NCBI GenBank assembly: GCA_020350725.1
Contig: CP070719.1
Span: 707,196-717,810 of the forward strand
DNA: 10,615 nt
DNA from: a bacterium
GTDB lineage: Bacteria; BMS3Abin14
Direction of reading: 5' to 3'
In this document: positions 1 through 10,615 of the stretch, in pieces
How the letters are laid out: each line of letters opens with the position of its first letter
Position numbering within the stretch: position 1 is the first letter of the stretch
Position numbers and translations under genes: made by a program
Notes under the pieces: generated by a model
The model's input: only the letters and a program-made list of their open reading frames with translations
Told to the model about the DNA's origin: nothing
The model's database searches: none

Positions 1-1172
1 ATCAGGATCGGCTTGAGGAATTCCACGGTGTCGCCGTCCCCGACCCAGTCCCCGGCAAGGAGATCCCTCAACTTGACGGCGCCGTCCTCGCAGCCGTACC
101 TGGATCGGATGGATTCGCCCTCGGCCGCTGTCAGGATGGCCTCCCCATCGTCAGCGAGTCCGGCCTCGACCCACCTTCGGAAACCCGGTACCGGCGACAG
201 GGTCGCGAAGTGTTTCAGGGCCGGCATCTCCCTGGAGAGCTGTTCCACAACGGTCTTGATGAGGAAGCTGCCGAGGTGGATACCGGTCAGCCCGGGCTGA
301 GTGCTGGTGATGGAGTAGAAGATGGCTGTGTCGGCCCTGTCGAGTGCCGGCTCAGGGTCCTCACTTTCCAGGAGCTCCTGAATGTTGTCGCTCATGCCGT
401 TGACAAGGGCCACCTCGACGAAGATCAGGGGCTCGAGGGGCATCTTGTTGTGGAAGAAGGCAAAGCACCGTCGGTCGGAGGTGAGTCGCCTTCTCAGGTC
501 GTCCCAGGAGCGTATCTGGTGGACCGCCTCGTAGGCGATGAGTTTTTCCAGGAGGGCCGCGGGCGAATCCCAGGTGATCTCCTTGAGGTCGAGGAGGCCG
601 ACGTCGAACCAGGCGGCGAGGATCTCCTTCAGGTCAATGGAAAGCCTGTAGAGGAAAGGGTCCTCCTCAACTATGGGCAGCAGGTCCGCGCGCATGTCGA
701 TGAGAAATTTGATTCCGTTGGGCAGGGAGCTGAATTGCCGGAGCAGGCCAAGCCGGGGAGGGACGAGGGCTTCCTTGAGAGCGATCTCGGCCCGCACGCG
801 ATCCTCGGTCGTCTCGGCTTTCCCCAGGGAGGACAGACATTCCAGGAGAGCCCCCTCATCGACGTCGAAATCGTGGGCCAGAACATGGTGGAACATCCTG
901 CGTCCCTCCGGAGAGAGGTTGAGGTAGATCGATCCCAGTTCCACGGCCCGCGAGCGGGACGAGGCCTCACCCCGTTTGGTGTGGACACAGTCGCTGATAA
1001 CCGCCCTTATGTGTTCCCTGCCCTCACCGGAAAGACTCAACCCTTCCGTCCCGGCGAAGGTGGCCCGGGCGAGGGTCTTCAGATTATTCCAGGCCTTTTT
1101 CAGTTCACCTTTGGTCAACCGATGGAAGACGGCCAAGGATCTCTTTCCGGATTCGTCGCGCGTTTCGGGCAT
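1..1172 (-). CDS. matA: Malonyl-CoA decarboxylase (3' end cut by window edge)
   Basis: Converts malonyl-CoA to acetyl-CoA and CO2, the last step of malonate use in this operon. I translated 390 residues from the ATG at 1172. Family landmarks, compared from memory with the human enzyme, are LPNGIKFLIDMRADL (150-164), EAVHQIRSWDDLRRR (215-229), EPLIFVEVAL (247-256), AIFYSITSTQPGL (283-295, with the presumed catalytic serine in FYSI) and LSPVPGFRRW (325-334). The reading frame stays open to base 1. The C-terminal part, roughly 60 to 80 residues including the catalytic His (NPVANFHLQNG region in human), lies outside the window. AGGAGG at 1184-1179 is 6 nt from this ATG; a second in-frame ATG at 1175 is only 3 nt away and so less likely. 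It follows the malonyl-CoA synthetase gene by 117 nt. Function is well supported by sequence and context. Confidence 0.93.
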   Translation of the reverse strand, partial: MPETRDESGKRSLAVFHRLTKGELKKAWNNLKTLARATFAGTEGLSLSGEGREHIRAVISDCVHTKRGEASSRSRAVELGSIYLNLSPEGRRMFHHVLAHDFDVDEGALLECLSSLGKAETTEDRVRAEIALKEALVPPRLGLLRQFSSLPNGIKFLIDMRADLLPIVEEDPFLYRLSIDLKEILAAWFDVGLLDLKEITWDSPAALLEKLIAYEAVHQIRSWDDLRRRLTSDRRCFAFFHNKMPLEPLIFVEVALVNGMSDNIQELLESEDPEPALDRADTAIFYSITSTQPGLTGIHLGSFLIKTVVEQLSREMPALKHFATLSPVPGFRRWVEAGLADDGEAILTAAEGESIRSRYGCEDGAVKLRDLLAGDWVGDGDTVEFLKPIL

Positions 1173-1193
1173 CATTGCCCTCCTTTTAATAAA

Positions 1194-1273
1194 GGCGTCC
1201 GGAATTCAGGAGTCAGGATGAGGACCGCTTCCAGGGTCTGGGTTTCGTTCCCAGACACTGTATCCTGGACGCC
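1194..1273. other. Structured gap between matB and matA
   Basis: The only sizeable gap inside the operon (117 nt). GTCTGGG at 1236-1242 pairs with CCCAGAC at 1250-1256 around a 7-nt loop. Further out, GGCGTCC (1194-1200) is matched by GGACGCC (1267-1273). No U-tract follows on the minus strand, so it is not a convincing terminator. It could be an mRNA processing or stability element that sets a different level for matA, or chance. Inference only. Confidence 0.3.
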
Positions 1274-1289
1274 GGGTACTGATTTCTGC

Positions 1290-2846
1290 CTACCCCTCGT
1301 CCCTCTGACCCTTTTCTCCTCGGGAAAACAGCTCCTTCACCGCTTCGTTGAGGACTTTACCCATAGTGTTCCTGGGCAGATGGTCCACGAAGAGGATCTC
1401 CTTGGGGCATTTCCAGTCGTGAAGATGGACCCTGCAGTGGGCCTTGACGGCATCGGCTGTCACCCGGGTCCCGGCAGGCGGGACCACCGCGGCGACGACT
1501 TTCTCGCCCCACTCCTCGTCAGGGAGGCCCACCACCGCGGACTCGACCACGCCAGGGAGCTGATTGATCACACCCTGGATCTCCTTCGGGGAGATGTTCT
1601 CCCCTCCCGAAATGATGATGTGCTTGAGGCGGTCGGTGATGTAATAGTAGCCGTCCTCGTCGACCTTTCCCAGGTCGCCCGACCGGAACCAGCCGTCCAC
1701 GAATGCCTCAGCGGTCTCCCGGGGTTTGCGCCAATATCCCGGGGTGATGGACGGCCCCTTGAGCCACAGTTCTCCCTCTTCCCCCGGAGCAACGTCCTCG
1801 AGGGTCTCCGGATCGACGATCCGCGCCTCCAGACCGGGAAGGGGCAGGCCGATGGTCCCTGGCTTCCGGACACCCCTGTAGGGATTGGAAAAGTTCATGC
1901 CGGTCTCCGACATCCCTTCGCGCTCCACGGGCTCCTTACCGAAAAACTCCTTTATCCGGGCAAAATCCTCCACCAGGAGGGGTGCGGATCCGGAGGTCCA
2001 CAGGCGGATGTGGGAGAAGTCGGGTCGCCTTTCGCCCAGCCATGCCATCAGTTTGGCGTACATCTGGGGCACAGCCATGAAAACCGAACAGGCGTGATCC
2101 CCCCCCTTTCGGGCCAGGTGGTCGATAACGGTCTTGGGGACGAATCTGTCGAGCATGACCACATGGACCCCCGACATGAGAGCTGTCTGAAGGGCGAAAC
2201 AGAGCCCGTGGACGTGAAAAAGGGGGAGAGCGTGGCACAGGACGTCCGATGCGGTGATCTCCCAGATGTCGATGACATTCCTGGCATCGTGGACCAGGTT
2301 CCCCTGGGTGAGGACGGCCCCCTTGGGATCGCCTGTGGTACCTGAAGTGTAGATGATCAGTCCGGGGTCATCCGCCTCCAGGTCCACCCTGGGATCGCCG
2401 ACCGGACCAACCGGAAACGGGTCCTGATCCTGGTAGGGTCTGTCCGGATCCACGGTCAGGATTCGCATCCCCGGATCGATGTGCCGGATCGTCTTCTCCT
2501 GATCGGGCCCGCACAGGATGAGGGAGGCGTCCGCGTCCGCCATCAGATACTCCATCTCCGTCTCTTTGAATCCGGGGTTCAGGGGGACGGCGATGGCGCC
2601 GACCCTCTGGAGGGCGAGGTAGGACACCACGAAGGACAGGGATTTTTCAAGGTACAGGATGACCCTGTCCCCCTTGCCCACCCCCATGTCCCTGAAGCCG
2701 CTGGCGAACCGGATCGAGTCCCCGGCCAGGTCGGAATAGGATATCTGGGTCTCCACCCGGCCGTCACGGAAGAAGGTGACGGCCGTTTTATCACCCCAGG
2801 TGGAGAAGCTTCGATCAAAGCAGTCTGTCAGGGTTTCGCCCGTCAT
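1290..2846 (-). CDS. matB: Malonyl-CoA synthetase (AMP-forming acyl-CoA ligase, MatB/ACSF3 type)
   Basis: A cytoplasmic enzyme of the ANL superfamily that activates malonate with ATP and CoA to malonyl-CoA, feeding the decarboxylase encoded next. It has 518 residues, normal for the family. Visible motifs are the P-loop YTSGTTGDPKG (166-176), PLFHVHGL (208-215), the A5 motif EGMSET (310-315) followed by GMNFSNPYRGVRKPGTIG (316-333), SGD (389-391), YYITDRLKHIIISGGENISP (401-420) and the C-terminal NTMGKV with the adenylation lysine K497. The REGMSETGMN.SNPY stretch is typical of malonyl-CoA synthetases rather than acetyl- or long-chain acyl-CoA synthetases (from memory of MatB sequences). The start ATG has GGAGG a few bases upstream and lies 25 nt after the permease stop, so it is co-transcribed. 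A related methylmalonyl-CoA synthetase activity is possible, but the decarboxylase neighbour favours malonate. Confidence 0.93.
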   Translation of the reverse strand: MTGETLTDCFDRSFSTWGDKTAVTFFRDGRVETQISYSDLAGDSIRFASGFRDMGVGKGDRVILYLEKSLSFVVSYLALQRVGAIAVPLNPGFKETEMEYLMADADASLILCGPDQEKTIRHIDPGMRILTVDPDRPYQDQDPFPVGPVGDPRVDLEADDPGLIIYTSGTTGDPKGAVLTQGNLVHDARNVIDIWEITASDVLCHALPLFHVHGLCFALQTALMSGVHVVMLDRFVPKTVIDHLARKGGDHACSVFMAVPQMYAKLMAWLGERRPDFSHIRLWTSGSAPLLVEDFARIKEFFGKEPVEREGMSETGMNFSNPYRGVRKPGTIGLPLPGLEARIVDPETLEDVAPGEEGELWLKGPSITPGYWRKPRETAEAFVDGWFRSGDLGKVDEDGYYYITDRLKHIIISGGENISPKEIQGVINQLPGVVESAVVGLPDEEWGEKVVAAVVPPAGTRVTADAVKAHCRVHLHDWKCPKEILFVDHLPRNTMGKVLNEAVKELFSRGEKGQRDEG

Positions 2847-2871
2847 GGATCCCTCCGCCGCCGATCAGGTG

Positions 2872-4209
2872 TCAGCCGATCATCTTGTTCGGCAGCCACA
2901 GGGCCAGTTCGGGGAAGACAGTGACCAGGACGATCACCAGGATCTCGATGATGATAAAGGGCACGACCCCCAGGAGGATGTGAGACATGGGAATATCCGG
3001 GGCGATATTCTTGACTATGTACAGATTGAGACCCACCGGGGGGGTGACGAGACCGATCTCCAGGTTGACCGTCATGATGACGGCGAACCATATGGGATCG
3101 AACCCCAGACCGGTGATGACCGGCATGAGCATGGGGGCCACCATGAGGATCACCGCCGCAGGGGGAATAAAACAGCCAAGCAGGAGGAGCAGAAGATTGA
3201 TGAAGACCAGGATACCGTACTTGCCGAGGGGAAGCTTGAAGATCAGTTCTCCCAGGGTCTGGGTTGCGTACAGGTCGGAGGACACGTAGGAGAAGAGCAG
3301 GGCCGCCGCCATGATCATGAGGATCATGGAGCTCTCATTGAGGGTTTTGACCAGGATCTCCCAGAGTTTCCTCGGCTGATAGATCCGGTAGATAGTCATG
3401 ACGAAAAACAGGGACAGGACGGCCCCCAGCCCCGCCGCCTCGCTGGGGGTGGCCCAGCCGCCGTAGAGGGAACCCATGATGCCGATAATGATCAGGACGA
3501 AGGGCAGGACCTTCCCCAGGGCCCTGAATCTCTCTCCCCAGCTGTAGACCCTGTCATCCTCGTGCTCCCTGATGTAGTAGAGGGAACCCGGTTTGGCCGG
3601 CACGTACTTGCGGTAGAAAAAGACCCCTCCCACCCACAGGCAGCTGAGGAACACCTCCAGAAGACCCGGTATGACGCCGGCGATGAAGCACTTGCCTATG
3701 GAGGTCTCCGTGGCCACACCGTAAAGGATCATGGTGATGCTGGGTGGAATGAGGATGCCGAAGGTCCCCGCATGGGCGATGAGCCCCGTGCTGAGGGCCG
3801 GCGAGTAGCCCCGCTTTCTCATCTCCGGGATGCCCACCCCGCCGATGGCCGCGGCCGTGGCCGGGCTTGACCCGCAAAGGGCTGCGAATATGCCGCAGCC
3901 GATCATGTTGGCGATACCCAGGCCGCCGGGGATCCTGTGCAGCCATTTGTGCAGGGCCTCGTACAGATCCCGGCTGGCATTGGAAGCGGCTATGGGTGCA
4001 CTCAGGAAGATGAACAGGGGGATGGCCAGGAGGGCAAAGCTGTCCATGCTGCCGTACAGGACGTAGGGGACGGTGGACAGGGTGTGGGGGGAGAAGATGA
4101 GGATGAAGGTCAGGGAAATACCGGCCAGGCCGGCCCATATGGGGATGCCGGACATGAGGACGAGGAAAGCGCTGCCGAACAGCAGGGCGGCCATGAGGTA
4201 ATCATTCAC
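2872..4209 (-). CDS. matM: TRAP transporter large permease (DctM family), probable malonate transporter
   Basis: The large membrane subunit of a tripartite ATP-independent periplasmic transporter, which forms the ion-coupled translocation path. It has 445 residues with about a dozen hydrophobic segments, the standard size. DctM signatures include GGVGIPEMRKRGY (123-135), GTFGILIPPSITMILYG (148-164), YGGWATPSEAAGLGA (249-263) and NLEIGLVTPPVGLNLY (382-397). The start is a GTG at 4209-4207 with GGGAGGG upstream. It overlaps the end of the small permease gene by 8 nt (GTGAATGA), indicating translational coupling. Substrate is inferred from context: the downstream genes encode malonyl-CoA synthetase and decarboxylase, matching the matPQM TRAP system described in Sinorhizobium meliloti. 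The sequence alone would only say organic acid TRAP permease. Confidence 0.93.
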   Translation of the reverse strand: MNDYLMAALLFGSAFLVLMSGIPIWAGLAGISLTFILIFSPHTLSTVPYVLYGSMDSFALLAIPLFIFLSAPIAASNASRDLYEALHKWLHRIPGGLGIANMIGCGIFAALCGSSPATAAAIGGVGIPEMRKRGYSPALSTGLIAHAGTFGILIPPSITMILYGVATETSIGKCFIAGVIPGLLEVFLSCLWVGGVFFYRKYVPAKPGSLYYIREHEDDRVYSWGERFRALGKVLPFVLIIIGIMGSLYGGWATPSEAAGLGAVLSLFFVMTIYRIYQPRKLWEILVKTLNESSMILMIMAAALLFSYVSSDLYATQTLGELIFKLPLGKYGILVFINLLLLLLGCFIPPAAVILMVAPMLMPVITGLGFDPIWFAVIMTVNLEIGLVTPPVGLNLYIVKNIAPDIPMSHILLGVVPFIIIEILVIVLVTVFPELALWLPNKMIG

Positions 4210-4816
4210 GGGGACCCTCCCCCGGGTCTACCTCCCGACCCTCGCTGTCCTCCTCCTCGCCGTGGGGGATCTCCAGTCCGCGCAGCTCGGACCGCTCCAC
4301 CTCATCTGCGATGTCGCCCCTGATCAGCTCTGTTATCTTCTCGCCGATGTGGACGAGGTACTGGAGAAAAAGGAGCGTCATCCCGAGGGGCAGAAACAGG
4401 TAGGGAATCCAGAGGGGCGGACCCCAGAGGGACTCTGAATGCTCCTTGTACTTGACCGATTCCCACCACATGGGCCAGGAGTACCACGCCAGAATGACCA
4501 CCAGGGCACACGCCAGGATGGACACGACGATGAGGACCAAGGCCCTCGCCCTTGGGGAGAGGTGGATGACGACAAGGTCCACGTTGAGATGATGCTCGTT
4601 CTTCTGGACGAAGGGGGCCCCGGCGAAAACCGCGAAAATGAGCAGGAAAACGGAGGCCTCGATCTGCCAGATGGTGGAGATGCCGAGCAGCTTTCGGACG
4701 ACGACTCCCTCGGTAACAATAAAGGCCGCGGCAACGATACACATTGCCGCGACCCATCCAGTGACAGAACTCAGACCGTTAACCAACCATACAAGTCTTT
4801 TGACAATCTGTCTCAT
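4202..4816 (-). CDS. matQ: TRAP transporter small permease (DctQ family), probable malonate transporter
   Basis: The small membrane subunit of the TRAP transporter, which works as a complex with the large permease. It has 204 residues. Four hydrophobic segments are visible at about 17-38, 50-70, 91-112 and 134-156, with the DctQ-like HLNVDL motif after the second (76-81). The C-terminal tail from about 168 is strongly acidic and hydrophilic (EEEDSEGREVDPGEGPRE at the end). This makes the protein somewhat longer than many DctQ proteins and probably faces the cytoplasm. Start ATG at 4816; TAAGGAAG just before it means the stop codon of the upstream gene forms part of this ribosome binding site (6-nt gap). 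Its end overlaps the large permease start by 8 nt. DctQ proteins diverge quickly, so assignment rests on topology and position as much as on motifs. Confidence 0.9.
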   Translation of the reverse strand: MRQIVKRLVWLVNGLSSVTGWVAAMCIVAAAFIVTEGVVVRKLLGISTIWQIEASVFLLIFAVFAGAPFVQKNEHHLNVDLVVIHLSPRARALVLIVVSILACALVVILAWYSWPMWWESVKYKEHSESLWGPPLWIPYLFLPLGMTLLFLQYLVHIGEKITELIRGDIADEVERSELRGLEIPHGEEEDSEGREVDPGEGPRE

Positions 4817-4822
4817 TCTTCC

Positions 4823-5845
4823 TTATTTCATGGCATCCAGGGCAAGATCCAGAAGCTCCTGACCGCCTTCCACGTTGTCGGCGAAATCCTTCCAGGCCGT
4901 TTCCCTGGCAAACTCAAGCCATGTGTTGAACTCGTCTTGGGTCATATAGTGTATATCCACTCCGGCTTTGGTGTATTCTGTGATCAGGGTGTCCACCAGG
5001 GATTTGAAGTTCTGATAGACCCAGTTCTCGTGCATCCATTCAGCCACCTCCAGAAAGACCTTCCGTTGATCCTCGCTGAGCCGGTTCCAGGTCTTCTCGG
5101 AGATGATGAGGTTCTCGGCCATGTACCATATGGAGTAGTCCCTGGGGGCGTTGATGAACTTGAGGACCTCATAGAGCTTGTAGGAGACGAAGGATGCTGA
5201 AGAGGTCAGCATGGTGTCCAGAACGCCTGTGGAAAGGGCATGATAGGTCTCAGAGGAGGGCATGCTGGTAACGGAGGCTCCTGCCTGCTGCATCATGAAC
5301 TCGAACTTCTTACCGGCCGCCCGCAGCTTCGTTCCCTTGACATCGGAGGGAACCCTTATTTGTCTGACCTTGCTGCCCAGACCGCCGTCGAACCAGGCCC
5401 AGACGAGGTTGCGCACTTCACTGTCCAGCATAAGGCCTTCAACCTTCTTGCCGATGGCCTTGTCCTTCCAGGTGATACCCTGCTGTATGTTGGCCACGGA
5501 ACAGGGCATGAGGGTTATGGACAGCTGGGGGACCTTGCCGGAGGCGTAGTCCAGGGGGAAAACGGACATGTCCAGGGCGCCTTTCCGCAGGGCATCCCAT
5601 TGTTCCCGCGCCTTGAACAGCGACTGGGCAGGATAGTGCCGGAAGGTCACTTCACCGTTGGTCCTTTCGGTTACCATCTCCCCGAAGACCCGTGCCATGC
5701 GGTCCCTGACGTCCCCGGCCGCGAACTGGTGGGAGACCTTCAGCTCAATGGGTTTGGCAGCCGCCGGAACGGGCAATACGAGGAGAACTCCCGCCAGAAA
5801 CAGAACCGCGACAATTCCCGTAATCGCTTTCTTTTGCCTTTTCAT
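4823..5845 (-). CDS. matP: TRAP transporter periplasmic solute-binding protein (DctP family), probable malonate-binding
   Basis: Captures the substrate in the periplasm and delivers it to the QM permease. I start it at the ATG at 5845 (340 residues), preceded by AAGGAGG 5 nt away. A TTG 21 nt upstream in frame is open but has no comparable site. Residues 1-30 form a classic signal peptide: a KRQKK basic start, a hydrophobic core, then PVPAAA before KPIELKVSHQF. The mature part follows the DctP fold, with FRHYPAQSLF (68-77), RKGALDMSVFPLDYASG (87-103) and DVKGTKLRA (168-176). That last stretch contains the conserved arginine (R175) that in this family contacts the substrate carboxylate. It is the first gene of the operon. 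Malonate is inferred from the two enzymes downstream. Confidence 0.92.
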   Translation of the reverse strand: MKRQKKAITGIVAVLFLAGVLLVLPVPAAAKPIELKVSHQFAAGDVRDRMARVFGEMVTERTNGEVTFRHYPAQSLFKAREQWDALRKGALDMSVFPLDYASGKVPQLSITLMPCSVANIQQGITWKDKAIGKKVEGLMLDSEVRNLVWAWFDGGLGSKVRQIRVPSDVKGTKLRAAGKKFEFMMQQAGASVTSMPSSETYHALSTGVLDTMLTSSASFVSYKLYEVLKFINAPRDYSIWYMAENLIISEKTWNRLSEDQRKVFLEVAEWMHENWVYQNFKSLVDTLITEYTKAGVDIHYMTQDEFNTWLEFARETAWKDFADNVEGGQELLDLALDAMK

Positions 5846-5869
5846 TACCGCCTCCTTCTCGGTCAAAGG

Positions 5870-8033: not shown

Positions 8034-8144
8034 GTTCCCGGTTCACGGTTATAGATTGCTTCACGCGGTTTCCTGTTCGCAATGACAACCGCCTTTTCCC
8101 CGCGTCTCCCTCTGGACGCTGGCCTCTGGGCTCTGGACTCATTT
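8034..8144 (+). repeat. Composite heptad repeat element, copy A
   Basis: Three GTTCMCG-type heptads (8034-8054; the last is the variant GTTATAG) run directly into an ATTGC...GCAAT module (8054-8086, shared last G). A pyrimidine-rich tail follows, then four heptads of consensus CTGGNCN at 8112-8139. The 33 bases 8112-8144 are identical to 8387-8419 in copy B. The 34 bases 8076-8109 are identical to 10516-10549 in copy D. Copy A lacks the GTGATTN array found in the other copies. Confidence 0.88.
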
Positions 8145-8181
8145 GTCCCCGCGTCCGCTTCTCACCTGCCCTGCCTGCCGT

Positions 8182-8209
8182 GAGCCTGTCGAACGGAGCC
8201 TGTCGAAGG
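8182..8209 (+). repeat. Tandem 14-mer, GAGCCTGTCGAA type
   Basis: GAGCCTGTCGAACG is followed immediately by GAGCCTGTCGAAGG: two 14-bp units, twice the 7-bp period seen elsewhere in the region. The core GAGCCTGTCGAA resembles dispersed repeats seen in many environmental genomes (from memory). Confidence 0.7.
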
Positions 8210-8220
8210 GTTGGGAAAAA

Positions 8221-8465
8221 GCCGTGATTGGTGATTCGTGATTAGTGATTCGGAAAGACGAGTTCCCGGTTCCCGGTTCACAGTTAGAGATTGCTTCACA
8301 CAGGCATCGGTTCGCAATGACAACCGCTTGTTCGCCCCCTCTCCCCATCGCCGAAGCGCCCCATCGGTTAGGTCCCTGCGTCCCCCCTGGACGCTGGCCT
8401 CTGGGCTCTGGACTCATTTTTCCCCTTCTCCCCCTCTCCTCACCGCCCTATCGCCCCCTCGGGTA
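8221..8465 (+). repeat. Composite heptad repeat element, copy B
   Basis: In order: four GTGATTN heptads (8224-8251); a short linker; four GTTCMCR-type heptads (8262-8289; the last is the variant GTTAGAG); an ATTGC...GCAAT module (8289-8321); CCCCATCG-type octads; four CTGGNCN heptads (8387-8414); and four octads ending CCCTATCG, CCCCCTCG, then GGGTA (8430-8465). The first 39 bases (8221-8259) equal 10325-10363 in copy D. The region fills most of the gap between the small protein gene and the DUF481 gene. Open frames through it are products of the repeat. Confidence 0.9.
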
Positions 8466-8495
8466 GGTCCCCGCACTCGCCCTCCACCCTACCGG

Positions 8496-8524
8496 TTGCC
8501 GGTCCCGGGTTCCTCCGTTATAGT
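8496..8524 (+). promoter_or_regulatory. Sigma70-type promoter of the DUF481 gene
   Basis: TTGCCG (8496-8501), 17 nt, TATAGT (8519-8524). The predicted start is near 8531, giving a leader of about 60 nt. The promoter lies directly after repeat copy B. Its -10 box is embedded in GTTATAG, the same heptad seen in copy A at 8048-8054. Confidence 0.5.
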
Positions 8525-8591
8525 TAAAAGGAATTCTGCCCGCTTAACAGAGATCCCAAGCCATGTCCGGATATCCCGGGGGAGGGTGAAA

Positions 8592-9314
8592 ATGAAAAGA
8601 TCAACCGTGTTCGTTTTGATCCTGGGCATTCTTGCCTGTCCTGCCGCCGTACGGGCACAGGAGGACAGGGTCAGCGATCAGGCCGAGCTTTCCTACGTGG
8701 AGACAACGGGGAACACCGAGACGGTAAGTCTGGCGGCCAAAAACGTTCTGAAGTACACGTTTTCAGAGAAACTCCTGGGCACCTGGTCCCTTGGAGCCCT
8801 ACTTGTCGAGACCGATGACGTGACCACAGCCGAACAGTACTCCACGAGGGTGCGGCTGGATTACGTTCTCAGTGACCGGCTCTACTCCTTCGCCGACGCC
8901 GGCTGGTTCCAGGACGAACCCGCGGGTGTCAGCAGCCGAGTCGACGTGGGGGCGGGGGCTGGTTACTGGTTCCTCACCGGCCCGGAGCACAAGCTTCAGG
9001 GCGAGGCAGGTCTGACGCAGACCACCGAGGAGTTCACCGACGGCACGGACAACGACTTCCTGGGCGGACGCCTCTTCGGCAAGTACGCCTACAGCTTCCG
9101 GGAAAAGAACGAACTCTCCCAGTCTCTGGAGTACCTCCTGGATTTCGACGACACGGACAACTACGCCGTCAACTCCGAGACCGCCTTTACCAGCGTGATG
9201 ACGGACGTCCTGTCCCTGAAGACCAGCTATGTCATCAACTTCGACAACGAGCCGCCTCCCGGCTCCGAGGACACCGATACCAAGCTCAGCGTCACCCTGG
9301 TGGTGAACCTGTAG
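8592..9314 (+). CDS. DUF481 (YdiY-like) outer-membrane beta-barrel protein
   Basis: An exported protein of 240 residues. Residues 1-22 (ending CPAAVRA) form a signal peptide, then QEDRVSDQAELSYVETTGNT begins the mature chain. The rest alternates polar and hydrophobic residues in beta-strand style, with DUF481 landmarks: SYVETTGNTET near the start, YVLSDRLYSFADAGWFQDE, RVDVGAGAGYWFLTGPEHKL, GKYAYSFREKNELSQSLEYL and a C-terminal LKTSYVINFDNEPPPGSEDT. It ends TLVVNL, a hydrophobic barrel-type terminus. The family is known as salt-induced outer-membrane proteins; the exact function is unsettled. The start ATG has GGAGG 6-7 nt upstream. The frame is open for another 354 nt upstream, but that part is repeat DNA and lacks a signal peptide, so I exclude it. 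It is a single gene with its own promoter and no clear terminator. Confidence 0.88.
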   Translation: MKRSTVFVLILGILACPAAVRAQEDRVSDQAELSYVETTGNTETVSLAAKNVLKYTFSEKLLGTWSLGALLVETDDVTTAEQYSTRVRLDYVLSDRLYSFADAGWFQDEPAGVSSRVDVGAGAGYWFLTGPEHKLQGEAGLTQTTEEFTDGTDNDFLGGRLFGKYAYSFREKNELSQSLEYLLDFDDTDNYAVNSETAFTSVMTDVLSLKTSYVINFDNEPPPGSEDTDTKLSVTLVVNL

Positions 9315-9327
9315 GGAGGGAGAACCT

Positions 9328-9447
9328 GTTCACGGTTCACGGTGGGGAAACCGCCGTGATTGGTGATTCGTGATTAGTGATTCGGTAGCGAATCCAAAAC
9401 CCAAAGTCCAAAATCCAAAAGAACAGTTCGCGGTTCACGGTGGGGAA
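9328..9447 (+). repeat. Composite heptad repeat element, copy C
   Basis: Two GTTCACG heptads (9328-9341), GTGGGGAAACCGCC, four GTGATTN heptads (9356-9383), then four ARTCCAA-type heptads (9391-9418), and again two GTTCRCG heptads with GTGGGGA (9426-9446). It lacks the ATTGC...GCAAT module. The 51 bases 9335-9385 match 10307-10357 in copy D with one mismatch. CGGTGG/CCGCCG (9340-9356) can form a 6-bp hairpin after the DUF481 gene, but no U-tract follows. Confidence 0.9.
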
Positions 9448-9496
9448 TCAGATCTACCTGTCACTCGTCACCTTTTCTGGGCCTGCGGTGCGGCCT

Positions 9497-10084
9497 CTAC
9501 TGAATGCCTCCCATCCGGGTGATAAGGGTGATGGCGTCTTCATGGTTGTTAACAATGGCAAAGGACAATGGAGTGGCGCCGTTCGCCGTCCTGGCATTGA
9601 TATCTGCTCCCTTGGAATAAAGAAACTTCAGGGTCCGGCAGCATCCGGAGATGGCGGCATGGTGCATCACGGTAAAACCCCTACGATCCGTGGCATTGAG
9701 GTTCCTCCAGGGTGTGTACAGGATCTGGACCATCTCGAAGTTGCCAGCTTTCGAAGCCACCATCAGGGGTGTGGTGCCGTCAAAGGAAGAACAGTCCGCA
9801 TCCGCTCCGTTCTCGAGGAGAAGCCTGACTATGTTGATGTCGTTCAGTTCCACGGCCAGGTGCAGGGGCCTGATTCCACCCCTGCTTTTGCAGTCCAACC
9901 TTCGGGGGTCCAGGTCAATAAGAAAAGCAGCCCTGTCGCAATCGCCCTCCGCGATGGCCTCGAAGATCTGTGAGGAACCTTTGGCCAACGTCGGTAGAAA
10001 AAGGAGCAGACAGGCACCCACAAAACCTGACCACCACAACTTTGTCAGCGTTCGATAGCGAGTCTGAAACGGAAGAACGGCCAC
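9497..10084 (-). CDS. Exported ankyrin-repeat protein
   Basis: A 195-residue protein with an N-terminal hydrophobic segment at about 15-34 (LTKLWWSGFVGACLLLFLPTLAKG|SS) that looks like a signal peptide, so it is probably periplasmic. Ankyrin repeats follow: a degenerate cap at 37-66, then GGIRPLHLAVELNDINIVRL (69-88) with LLENGADADC; DGTTPLMVASKAGNFEMVQ (102-120); RGFTVMHHAAISGCCRTLKF (135-154) with SKGADINART; and NGATPLSFAIVNNHEDAITL (168-187). Such repeats bind partner proteins; the partner is unknown. The start is a GTG at 10084 with a G-rich AGGGGGG about 9 nt upstream. No ATG exists before residue 109. The start codon lies in a hairpin. The gene is less GC-rich than the malonate genes and sits between repeat copies C and D, suggesting an accessory gene. 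Confidence 0.85.
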   Translation of the reverse strand: MAVLPFQTRYRTLTKLWWSGFVGACLLLFLPTLAKGSSQIFEAIAEGDCDRAAFLIDLDPRRLDCKSRGGIRPLHLAVELNDINIVRLLLENGADADCSSFDGTTPLMVASKAGNFEMVQILYTPWRNLNATDRRGFTVMHHAAISGCCRTLKFLYSKGADINARTANGATPLSFAIVNNHEDAITLITRMGGIQ

Positions 10085-10110
10085 TGTTAGTCACCCCCCT
10101 GACACAGTGG
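10081..10110 (-). promoter_or_regulatory. Stem-loop over the ankyrin gene start codon
   Basis: CCACTGT (10081-10087) pairs with ACAGTGG (10104-10110). After a 2-nt TA bulge on one side, GTCA (10090-10093) pairs with TGAC (10100-10103), closing a loop of six C (six G in the mRNA). In the transcript the GTG start codon (10084-10082) lies in the 11-bp stem and the G-rich Shine-Dalgarno candidate in the loop. This fits translational control; a DNA operator is the alternative. Confidence 0.55.
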
Positions 10111-10131
10111 TTGGGCTACTGATATTGCATA

Positions 10132-10159
10132 ATTTTACCATAAATCCGATCGATGTCTA
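10132..10159 (-). promoter_or_regulatory. Candidate sigma70-type promoter of the ankyrin gene
   Basis: TAGACA (10159-10154), 16 nt, TAAAAT (10137-10132) on the minus strand. Each hexamer has one mismatch to consensus. The predicted leader is about 40 nt and includes the stem-loop over the start codon. Confidence 0.42.
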
Positions 10160-10306
10160 TTCGGGGGAAAAACTGGTGGTGAGATTCGGAGGAAAAACCC
10201 TGCCATCCTCATCCTCTCTGGTGATCCGATCCCTCGACCCTACCCTTGTCCCGGGCTACCTCATCTCCGGCTTTGAGCTTTCCGGATAGAAATATGGAAA
10301 ACGAGA
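10160..10306. other. Spacer without a recognised feature
   Basis: A 147-nt stretch between the ankyrin gene promoter and repeat copy D. TCCGG/CCGGA near 10266-10286 could pair weakly. An open frame crosses it on the plus strand (GTG at 10107 to 10289) but has no ribosome binding site and no recognisable sequence. Confidence 0.35.
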
Positions 10307-10615
10307 GTTCACAGTGGGGAAACCGCCGTGATTGGTGATTCGTGATTAGTGATTCGGAAAGACCAGTTCACGGTTCACGGTTCACAGTTAAAGATTGCTT
10401 CACGCGGTTTCGGTTCGCAATGACGACCGCTCGTTCTCCCCATCGCCCCCTCGCATTTCCGCGTCTCCGCGTCTCCGTGTCCGCATATTACGGGATTGCT
10501 TCACGCGGTTTCCGGTTCGCAATGACAACCGCCTTTTCCCCGCGTCTCCGCGTCTCCGTGTTCCTGCGTCCGCTTTTCGCCCCATCGCCCCACCGCCCTC
10601 TCGCCCCCTCGGGTA
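10307..10615 (+). repeat. Composite heptad repeat element, copy D (runs off the window)
   Basis: The longest copy. GTTCACA-GTGGGGAAACCGCC, four GTGATTN heptads (10328-10355), a linker, four GTTCACR-type heptads (10366-10393; the last is the variant GTTAAAG), an ATTGC...GCAAT module (10393-10424), a pyrimidine-rich tail with GTCTCCGY octads (10463-10478), a second ATTGC...GCAAT module (10494-10526), again GTCTCCGY octads (10544-10559), and four octads of type CCCCNTCG (10580-10611). The element probably continues past the window edge. Translated frames such as VIANR...KQS come from the repeat and are not genes. Confidence 0.9.

Follow-up and report, generated by a model that had tools for sequence, protein, structure and literature searches.

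Intergenic arrays of about four heptamers, with conserved sites and replaced sequences

The locus raised the question of why short tandem arrays with unrelated unit sequences stop at the same number of units. We analysed a window of 10,615 nucleotides, bases 707196-717810 of a bacterial single-contig genome of 2,777,163 bases (the source genome), which carries three intergenic array clusters in its final 2.6 kb (about 8034-8484, 9323-9452 and 10301-10615). From this stretch alone, an earlier note had proposed one generating process behind a common period and copy number. The rule was found genome-wide, and it was seen in relatives with other heptamers; part of the sameness within the window came from copied composites. 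In a related genus, site occupancy was conserved between species, and the unit sequence was replaced in both arms of inverted pairs.

Arrays were searched with a scoring scan in 40 evenly spaced 20-kb stretches of the source genome (800 kb), and the whole genome was covered by pattern search only. First-order Markov-shuffled sequence was used as the null. The sample contained 145 period-7 arrays, 24 period-8 arrays and at most five at any one of the other periods from 4 to 11, and the shuffled sequence gave zero arrays at all periods 4-11, by which a chance origin was rejected. Longer periods, for example 14, were partly multiples of 7. The number of units in the 145 period-7 arrays was three in 22, four in 97, five in 17, six in 4 and more in 5. 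The tabulation against shuffled sequence therefore agreed with the earlier expectation, as period 7 dominated (145 against 0) and the counts peaked at four. The 145 arrays comprised 45 distinct consensus heptamers, and when each was counted once, the median was four units for 28 of the 45. Exact-core run lengths in the sample were non-monotonic both for CTGG.C (two units, 21; three, 4; four, 45) and for GTGATT (two, 34; three, 4; four, 14; five, 2).

The four-unit share of period-7 arrays was 67% in the source genome and 69% in G008, a relative of genus g3. Detector bias was controlled with twelve simulations, in which array lengths were geometric, 5-15% of the bases were substituted and the identical detector was applied. 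The four-unit share never exceeded 38%, and a detection artefact behind the peak was rejected. The 20-mer pattern GTGATTNGTGATTNGTGATT had 139 matches genome-wide, compared to 2 for the reversed control. GTGATTN matches spanned 0.28-2.77 Mb, with a high density at about 0.28-1.36 Mb and a low density elsewhere. By a simple home-made gene caller, 164 of 168 arrays in the source genome and 56 of 60 in G008 were intergenic. They lay between gene pairs of all three orientations (convergent, divergent and tandem) roughly in proportion to intergenic space, and only in G008 were they slightly enriched near stop codons (18 vs 9 random). Placement at terminators or promoters only was rejected because arrays occurred in all gene contexts. 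The Rfam covariance models gave no match at E <= 0.5.

Related genomes followed the same period and four-unit rule with other heptamers. In the family of the source genome, the available relatives all belong to other genera. The 200 kb covered of G008 contained 48 period-7 arrays, of which 33 had four units, and they used 26 different heptamers. The density per 100 kb was 16 in G002, 10.5 in G004, 7 in G003 and 4.5 in G001, and G009 had none in 53 kb. Shared ancestry as the sole cause of the four units held for part of the source genome and failed in G008, with its 26 heptamers among 48 arrays. The earlier note had also called a set of different four-unit modules in one place unusual. The rule was not confined to this place. 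The four-unit GTGATTN pattern was found in at least 118 stretches of named genomes (Bacteroidales, Lysobacteraceae, Verrucomicrobiota, cyanobacteria, Chloroflexota, Desulfonema and others), and the other arrays in the stretches listed were mostly of period 7 (at least 135), with four and then five units the commonest. Since period and copy number were shared across unrelated units, genome-wide and again in relatives, a sequence-independent cause was supported. Period 7 and four units were imposed independently of the unit sequence.

The arrangement of the arrays was then informative in G008. An inverted partner with the same heptamer lay within 400 bp of 19 of 48 arrays (40%), compared to 3% for control flanks of other arrays, and a direct partner was found for 0 of 48. 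Of 13 neighbouring array pairs, 9 were inverted. Orthologous intergenic regions were compared between G008 and two species of the same genus, G002 and G011, whose coding DNA is mostly 72-83% identical (39 comparisons, 28 regions; three species, two of them fragmented assemblies). Arrays were absent from both sides in 23 comparisons, present on both in 13, present only in G008 in 3 and present only in the other species in 0 (Fisher p = 7e-8). By distinct region, the corresponding counts were 17, 9, 2 and 0, so that 9 of 11 regions with an array were matched and 0 of 17 without one (p = 8e-6). When both regions were at least 150 bp, they were 12, 12, 1 and 0 (p = 3e-6).

The sequences at these shared sites were different. 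The heptamers were one base apart in only 3 of 13 cases, and the rest resembled randomly paired loci in a shuffled null. At L195:246-516, the same two flanking genes enclosed inverted pairs of CAGCACG in G008, GATCTCA in G002 and AGTCCAG in G011. At L198:6504-6748, conserved flanks enclosed three different inverted pairs, one per species. At five hand-picked loci, the two arms of one species paired with a mean energy of -36.4 kcal/mol, compared to -15.3 kcal/mol when one arm was exchanged for that of another species. These comparisons showed that arm pairs are replaced in concert between the g3 species. They pointed to a process or constraint that acts on geometry, not sequence.

We tentatively favour, at a little less than an even chance, hairpin-arm modules at fixed intergenic sites that are rewritten by slippage and template switching. 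The arrays would be intergenic structural modules of about 28-31 bp, made of roughly four copies of a 7-bp or, less often, 8-bp unit. Replication slippage with a 7-bp step may write the unit along a tract or homogenise it there, and the new unit may be copied from one inverted arm into its partner by template switching (quasi-palindrome correction). The stem would persist while its sequence turns over, and the length near four units may be held by selection for stem size or by a limited copying tract. The arms of inverted repeats are known to be homogenised, and stems made or maintained, by template switching (PMC8794818, PMC8604942), and PMC7202029 also records the process between inverted arms. 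As for function, we would only guess that a hairpin in the transcript or DNA insulates the neighbouring genes. It is unlikely, in our estimate, that in many bacteria an active process writes matched inverted four-unit pairs at set positions between genes and from time to time replaces the heptamer of both arms by a new, unrelated one, the geometry being inherited and the sequence not.

Several points weigh against the hairpin model. Slippage alone yields no preferred number of four, and the loci for the arm-swap energies had been chosen by hand. The spacers between arms were mostly unalignable across species, which whole-cassette replacement would fit equally. No relative shares the intergenic regions of the window's own clusters, and there is no same-genus relative for the window. 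In the source genome, inverted partners were at 17% against a background of 19%, while direct neighbours reached 37% against 19%, consistent with composite repeats. The hairpin model therefore rests on the relatives.

The strongest rival is whole-cassette replacement, which we consider somewhat unlikely. Here the arrays would be the ends of mobile arm-spacer-arm miniature elements, placed at favoured intergenic sites by a heptamer-blind recombinase or transposase. It was consistent with the loci at L198:6504 and L195:246, where flanks were conserved to the array edges and arms and spacer differed wholly in three species, and with the source genome, where arrays travel in composites with conserved flanks. 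However, at L192:6465 a stretch of 15 bp of the spacer beside the right arm was kept though the heptamer had changed. No target-site duplications were seen between these relatives, which are about 20% diverged, although array-free orthologous regions exist. The source genome has two Y1 (IS200/RAYT-like) transposase genes, but such genes also occur in the array-poor relatives G003 and G001. The Y1/RAYT link was rejected because both array-rich and array-poor relatives have the genes. It would also be unusual for a recombinase to have no sequence preference at its own ends.

We judged it quite unlikely that the arrays come from neutral polymerase slippage that has a footprint of 7 bp and involves neither function nor pairing. 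A passage in Rehm et al. (2015, PMC4692102) credits this hypothesis to earlier work. It would account for the sequence independence and the intergenic location, and long arrays of up to 10 units do occur. However, the lengths peaked at four rather than declining from the shortest, presence at orthologous sites was conserved while sequence was not, and a new heptamer was common to two separated arms. Inverted pairs in which both arms change together are not explained by slippage alone.

It is highly doubtful that each array offers four binding sites to regulatory RNAs or to proteins that bind DNA or RNA, a role proposed for TAACTGA in Beggiatoaceae. The core was fixed within a family and one or two positions varied, as in GTGATT|N (N being all four bases) and CTGG[N]C[N], which would suit a binding site. 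However, a single binding protein is hard to reconcile with genomes that each have dozens of unrelated heptamers and with the replacement at orthologous sites, and the arrays stood in every gene context.

The best-known account of four-unit heptamer repeats is the G-quadruplex, by which the four-unit preference of GGGNATC repeats was explained (Rehm et al. 2015, PMC4692102), but elements requiring four G-tracts are extremely improbable here because heptamers without GG or CC preferred four units equally (36 of 58 arrays in the source genome, 15 of 22 in G008). Of the 145 source-genome arrays, 58 have a unit free of GG and CC, and only 11 have one with GGG. The G-quadruplex was rejected as a general cause by unit composition, and another cause is needed as the rule holds for non-formers.

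The arrays of the window, all on the plus strand, were as follows.

8034-8050, plus strand: GTTCMCR array, 2.4 units, from the sequence; opens the 77-nt dispersed repeat D1
8110-8140, plus strand: CTGGNCN array, 4.4 units, by Tandem Repeats Finder (TRF)
8224-8250, plus strand: GTGATTN array copy 1, 3.9 units, by TRF; D3/D4 copy
8262-8284, plus strand: GTTCMCR array, 2.6-3 units, from the sequence and TRF, which placed it at 8262-8279
8387-8415, plus strand: CTGGNCN array, 4.1 units, by TRF; copies 8110-8140 including flanks
8421-8460, plus strand: degenerate CCCCNTC(G) period-8 tract, by TRF; repeat D2
9328-9343, plus strand: GTTCACG array, 2.3 units, by TRF; 13 bp past the stop codon of the DUF481 gene
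9356-9382, plus strand: GTGATTN array copy 2, 3.9 units, by TRF; dispersed-repeat copy
9391-9420, plus strand: ARTCCAA array, 4.3 units, by TRF
9427-9441, plus strand: GTTCRCG array, 2 units, from the sequence
10328-10354, plus strand: GTGATTN array copy 3, 3.9 units, by TRF; dispersed-repeat copy
10366-10389, plus strand: GTTCACG array, 3.4 units, by TRF
10458-10481, plus strand: TCCGCGTC period-8 array, 3.0 units, by TRF
10540-10570, plus strand: CCGCGTCT period-8 array, 3.9 units, by TRF
10577-10611, plus strand: TCGCCCCN period-8 array, 4.4 units, by TRF; reaches the window end

The earlier description of several unrelated short arrays, mostly of four units, was borne out in that TRF found them. 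TRF gave 3.9-4.4 units in the GTGATTN, CTGGNCN and ARTCCAA arrays and two period-8 arrays, and 2.3-3.4 in the others. Most, not all, had four units, and the arrays were not all independent draws because the same composite repeats recur in the window. Copies of 51 nt, 84-98% alike, contained all three GTGATTN arrays, and copies of 56 nt, 88% alike, contained both CTGGNCN arrays. The core GATTGCTTC..GCAATGAC belongs to a 77-nt unit that occurred four times. When the region was compared with the genome sample by BLAST, each block had tens of extra copies, and about 16 further ARTCCAA arrays were found in the sample. The three clusters are near-identical probably because a composite module, GTGATTN - GTTCMCR - GATTGCTTC..GCAATGAC - CCCCNTCG - CTGGNCN, was additionally amplified as dispersed repeats in the source genome. 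Such dispersed duplication, judged from the repeat copies, accounts for part of the uniformity of the window.

Heptameric intergenic repeats, the four-unit preference and inverted pairs are already known separately. The GGGNATC and GGGGA(C/T)T repeats of Xanthomonas and Nostoc are similar in period 7, four-unit preference, intergenic position and frequent inverted pairs. They form 70-75 convergent inverted pairs per genome, and the same genes flank them in two species with varying sequence (PMC4692102). However, that system has one G-rich heptamer family per genome, whereas here there were dozens, mostly not G-rich, and the heptamer of both arms was replaced wholesale. The short tandemly repeated repetitive (STRR) sequences of heterocystous cyanobacteria likewise comprise several different heptamers in short, dispersed tandem runs, according to a passage on Calothrix in PMC4692102. 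They belong to another organism and have other units, and the comparison made here covers the dispersed heptamers. The source-genome arrays were heptameric intergenic repeats of this type (STRR or long simple sequence repeats), being over-represented compared to shuffled sequence, intergenic and dispersed. The TAACTGA repeats of marine Beggiatoaceae are also intergenic heptamer arrays scattered over unrelated lineages, with 2-6 copies and 169 sets per genome. Unlike the present arrays, they use a single heptamer, lie mostly just upstream of start codons, and related heptamers are rarely repeated (PMC4679880). DRT10, an enzyme that writes extrachromosomal 9-nt tandem-repeat cDNA from one non-coding RNA (PMC12632851), is similar in producing short tandem repeats, and no link to these arrays was found.

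In the open-access papers searched, we found no report of a single four-unit rule that governs dozens of unrelated heptamers and none of both arms replaced in concert at fixed sites. The concerted arm replacement and the independence from G-quadruplexes appear to be new. With position and pairing conserved while the sequence is replaced, these sites offer a natural system for testing the maintenance of hairpins by template switching, and sequence-based searches will miss such homologous intergenic structures. Repetitive extragenic palindromes (REP) and their paired form, REPIN, also lie between genes as inverted pairs, with arms of about 25-30 bp. The sequence of REP arms is palindromic and conserved, whereas the arms here were tandem heptamers without a conserved sequence. 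The arrays do not belong to REP/REPIN, as arms were mostly unshared between loci and species and the Y1 genes were unrelated to array density.

Other repeats were observed beside the arrays. A near-palindromic module, GATTGCTTCACGCGGTTTCGGTTCGCAATGAC, lay inside the composites at window 8054-8095, 8289-8328, 10393-10430 and 10495-10532, with tens of copies in the genome sample. We take it to resemble the GTCATTGCGA...GAAGCAATC repeats of many unrelated bacteria. The tandem 14-bp pair GAGCCTGTCGAACG / GAGCCTGTCGAAGG at window 8182-8210 is presumably comparable to the CTTCGACAGGCTC repeats of many bacteria. AAGAGAT arrays were near-identical at eight places, including L060:13105, L066:14308 and L070:6317 (TAAGAGATAAGTGATAAGAGATAAG with conserved flanks), and this family is a dispersed repeat because of these eight near-identical copies. 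Long arrays do occur, such as the period-8 array at L199:14021 in G008 (ACCTAGAT, 14 units). In the window, the clusters flank a DUF481 gene (8592-9314) and an ankyrin-repeat gene on the minus strand (9497-10084), both named by Pfam. Positions 1-5866 carry, on the minus strand and also by Pfam, genes for malonyl-CoA decarboxylase, an AMP-binding acyl-CoA synthetase and the TRAP transporter DctM/DctQ/DctP, which form a malonate-type cluster.

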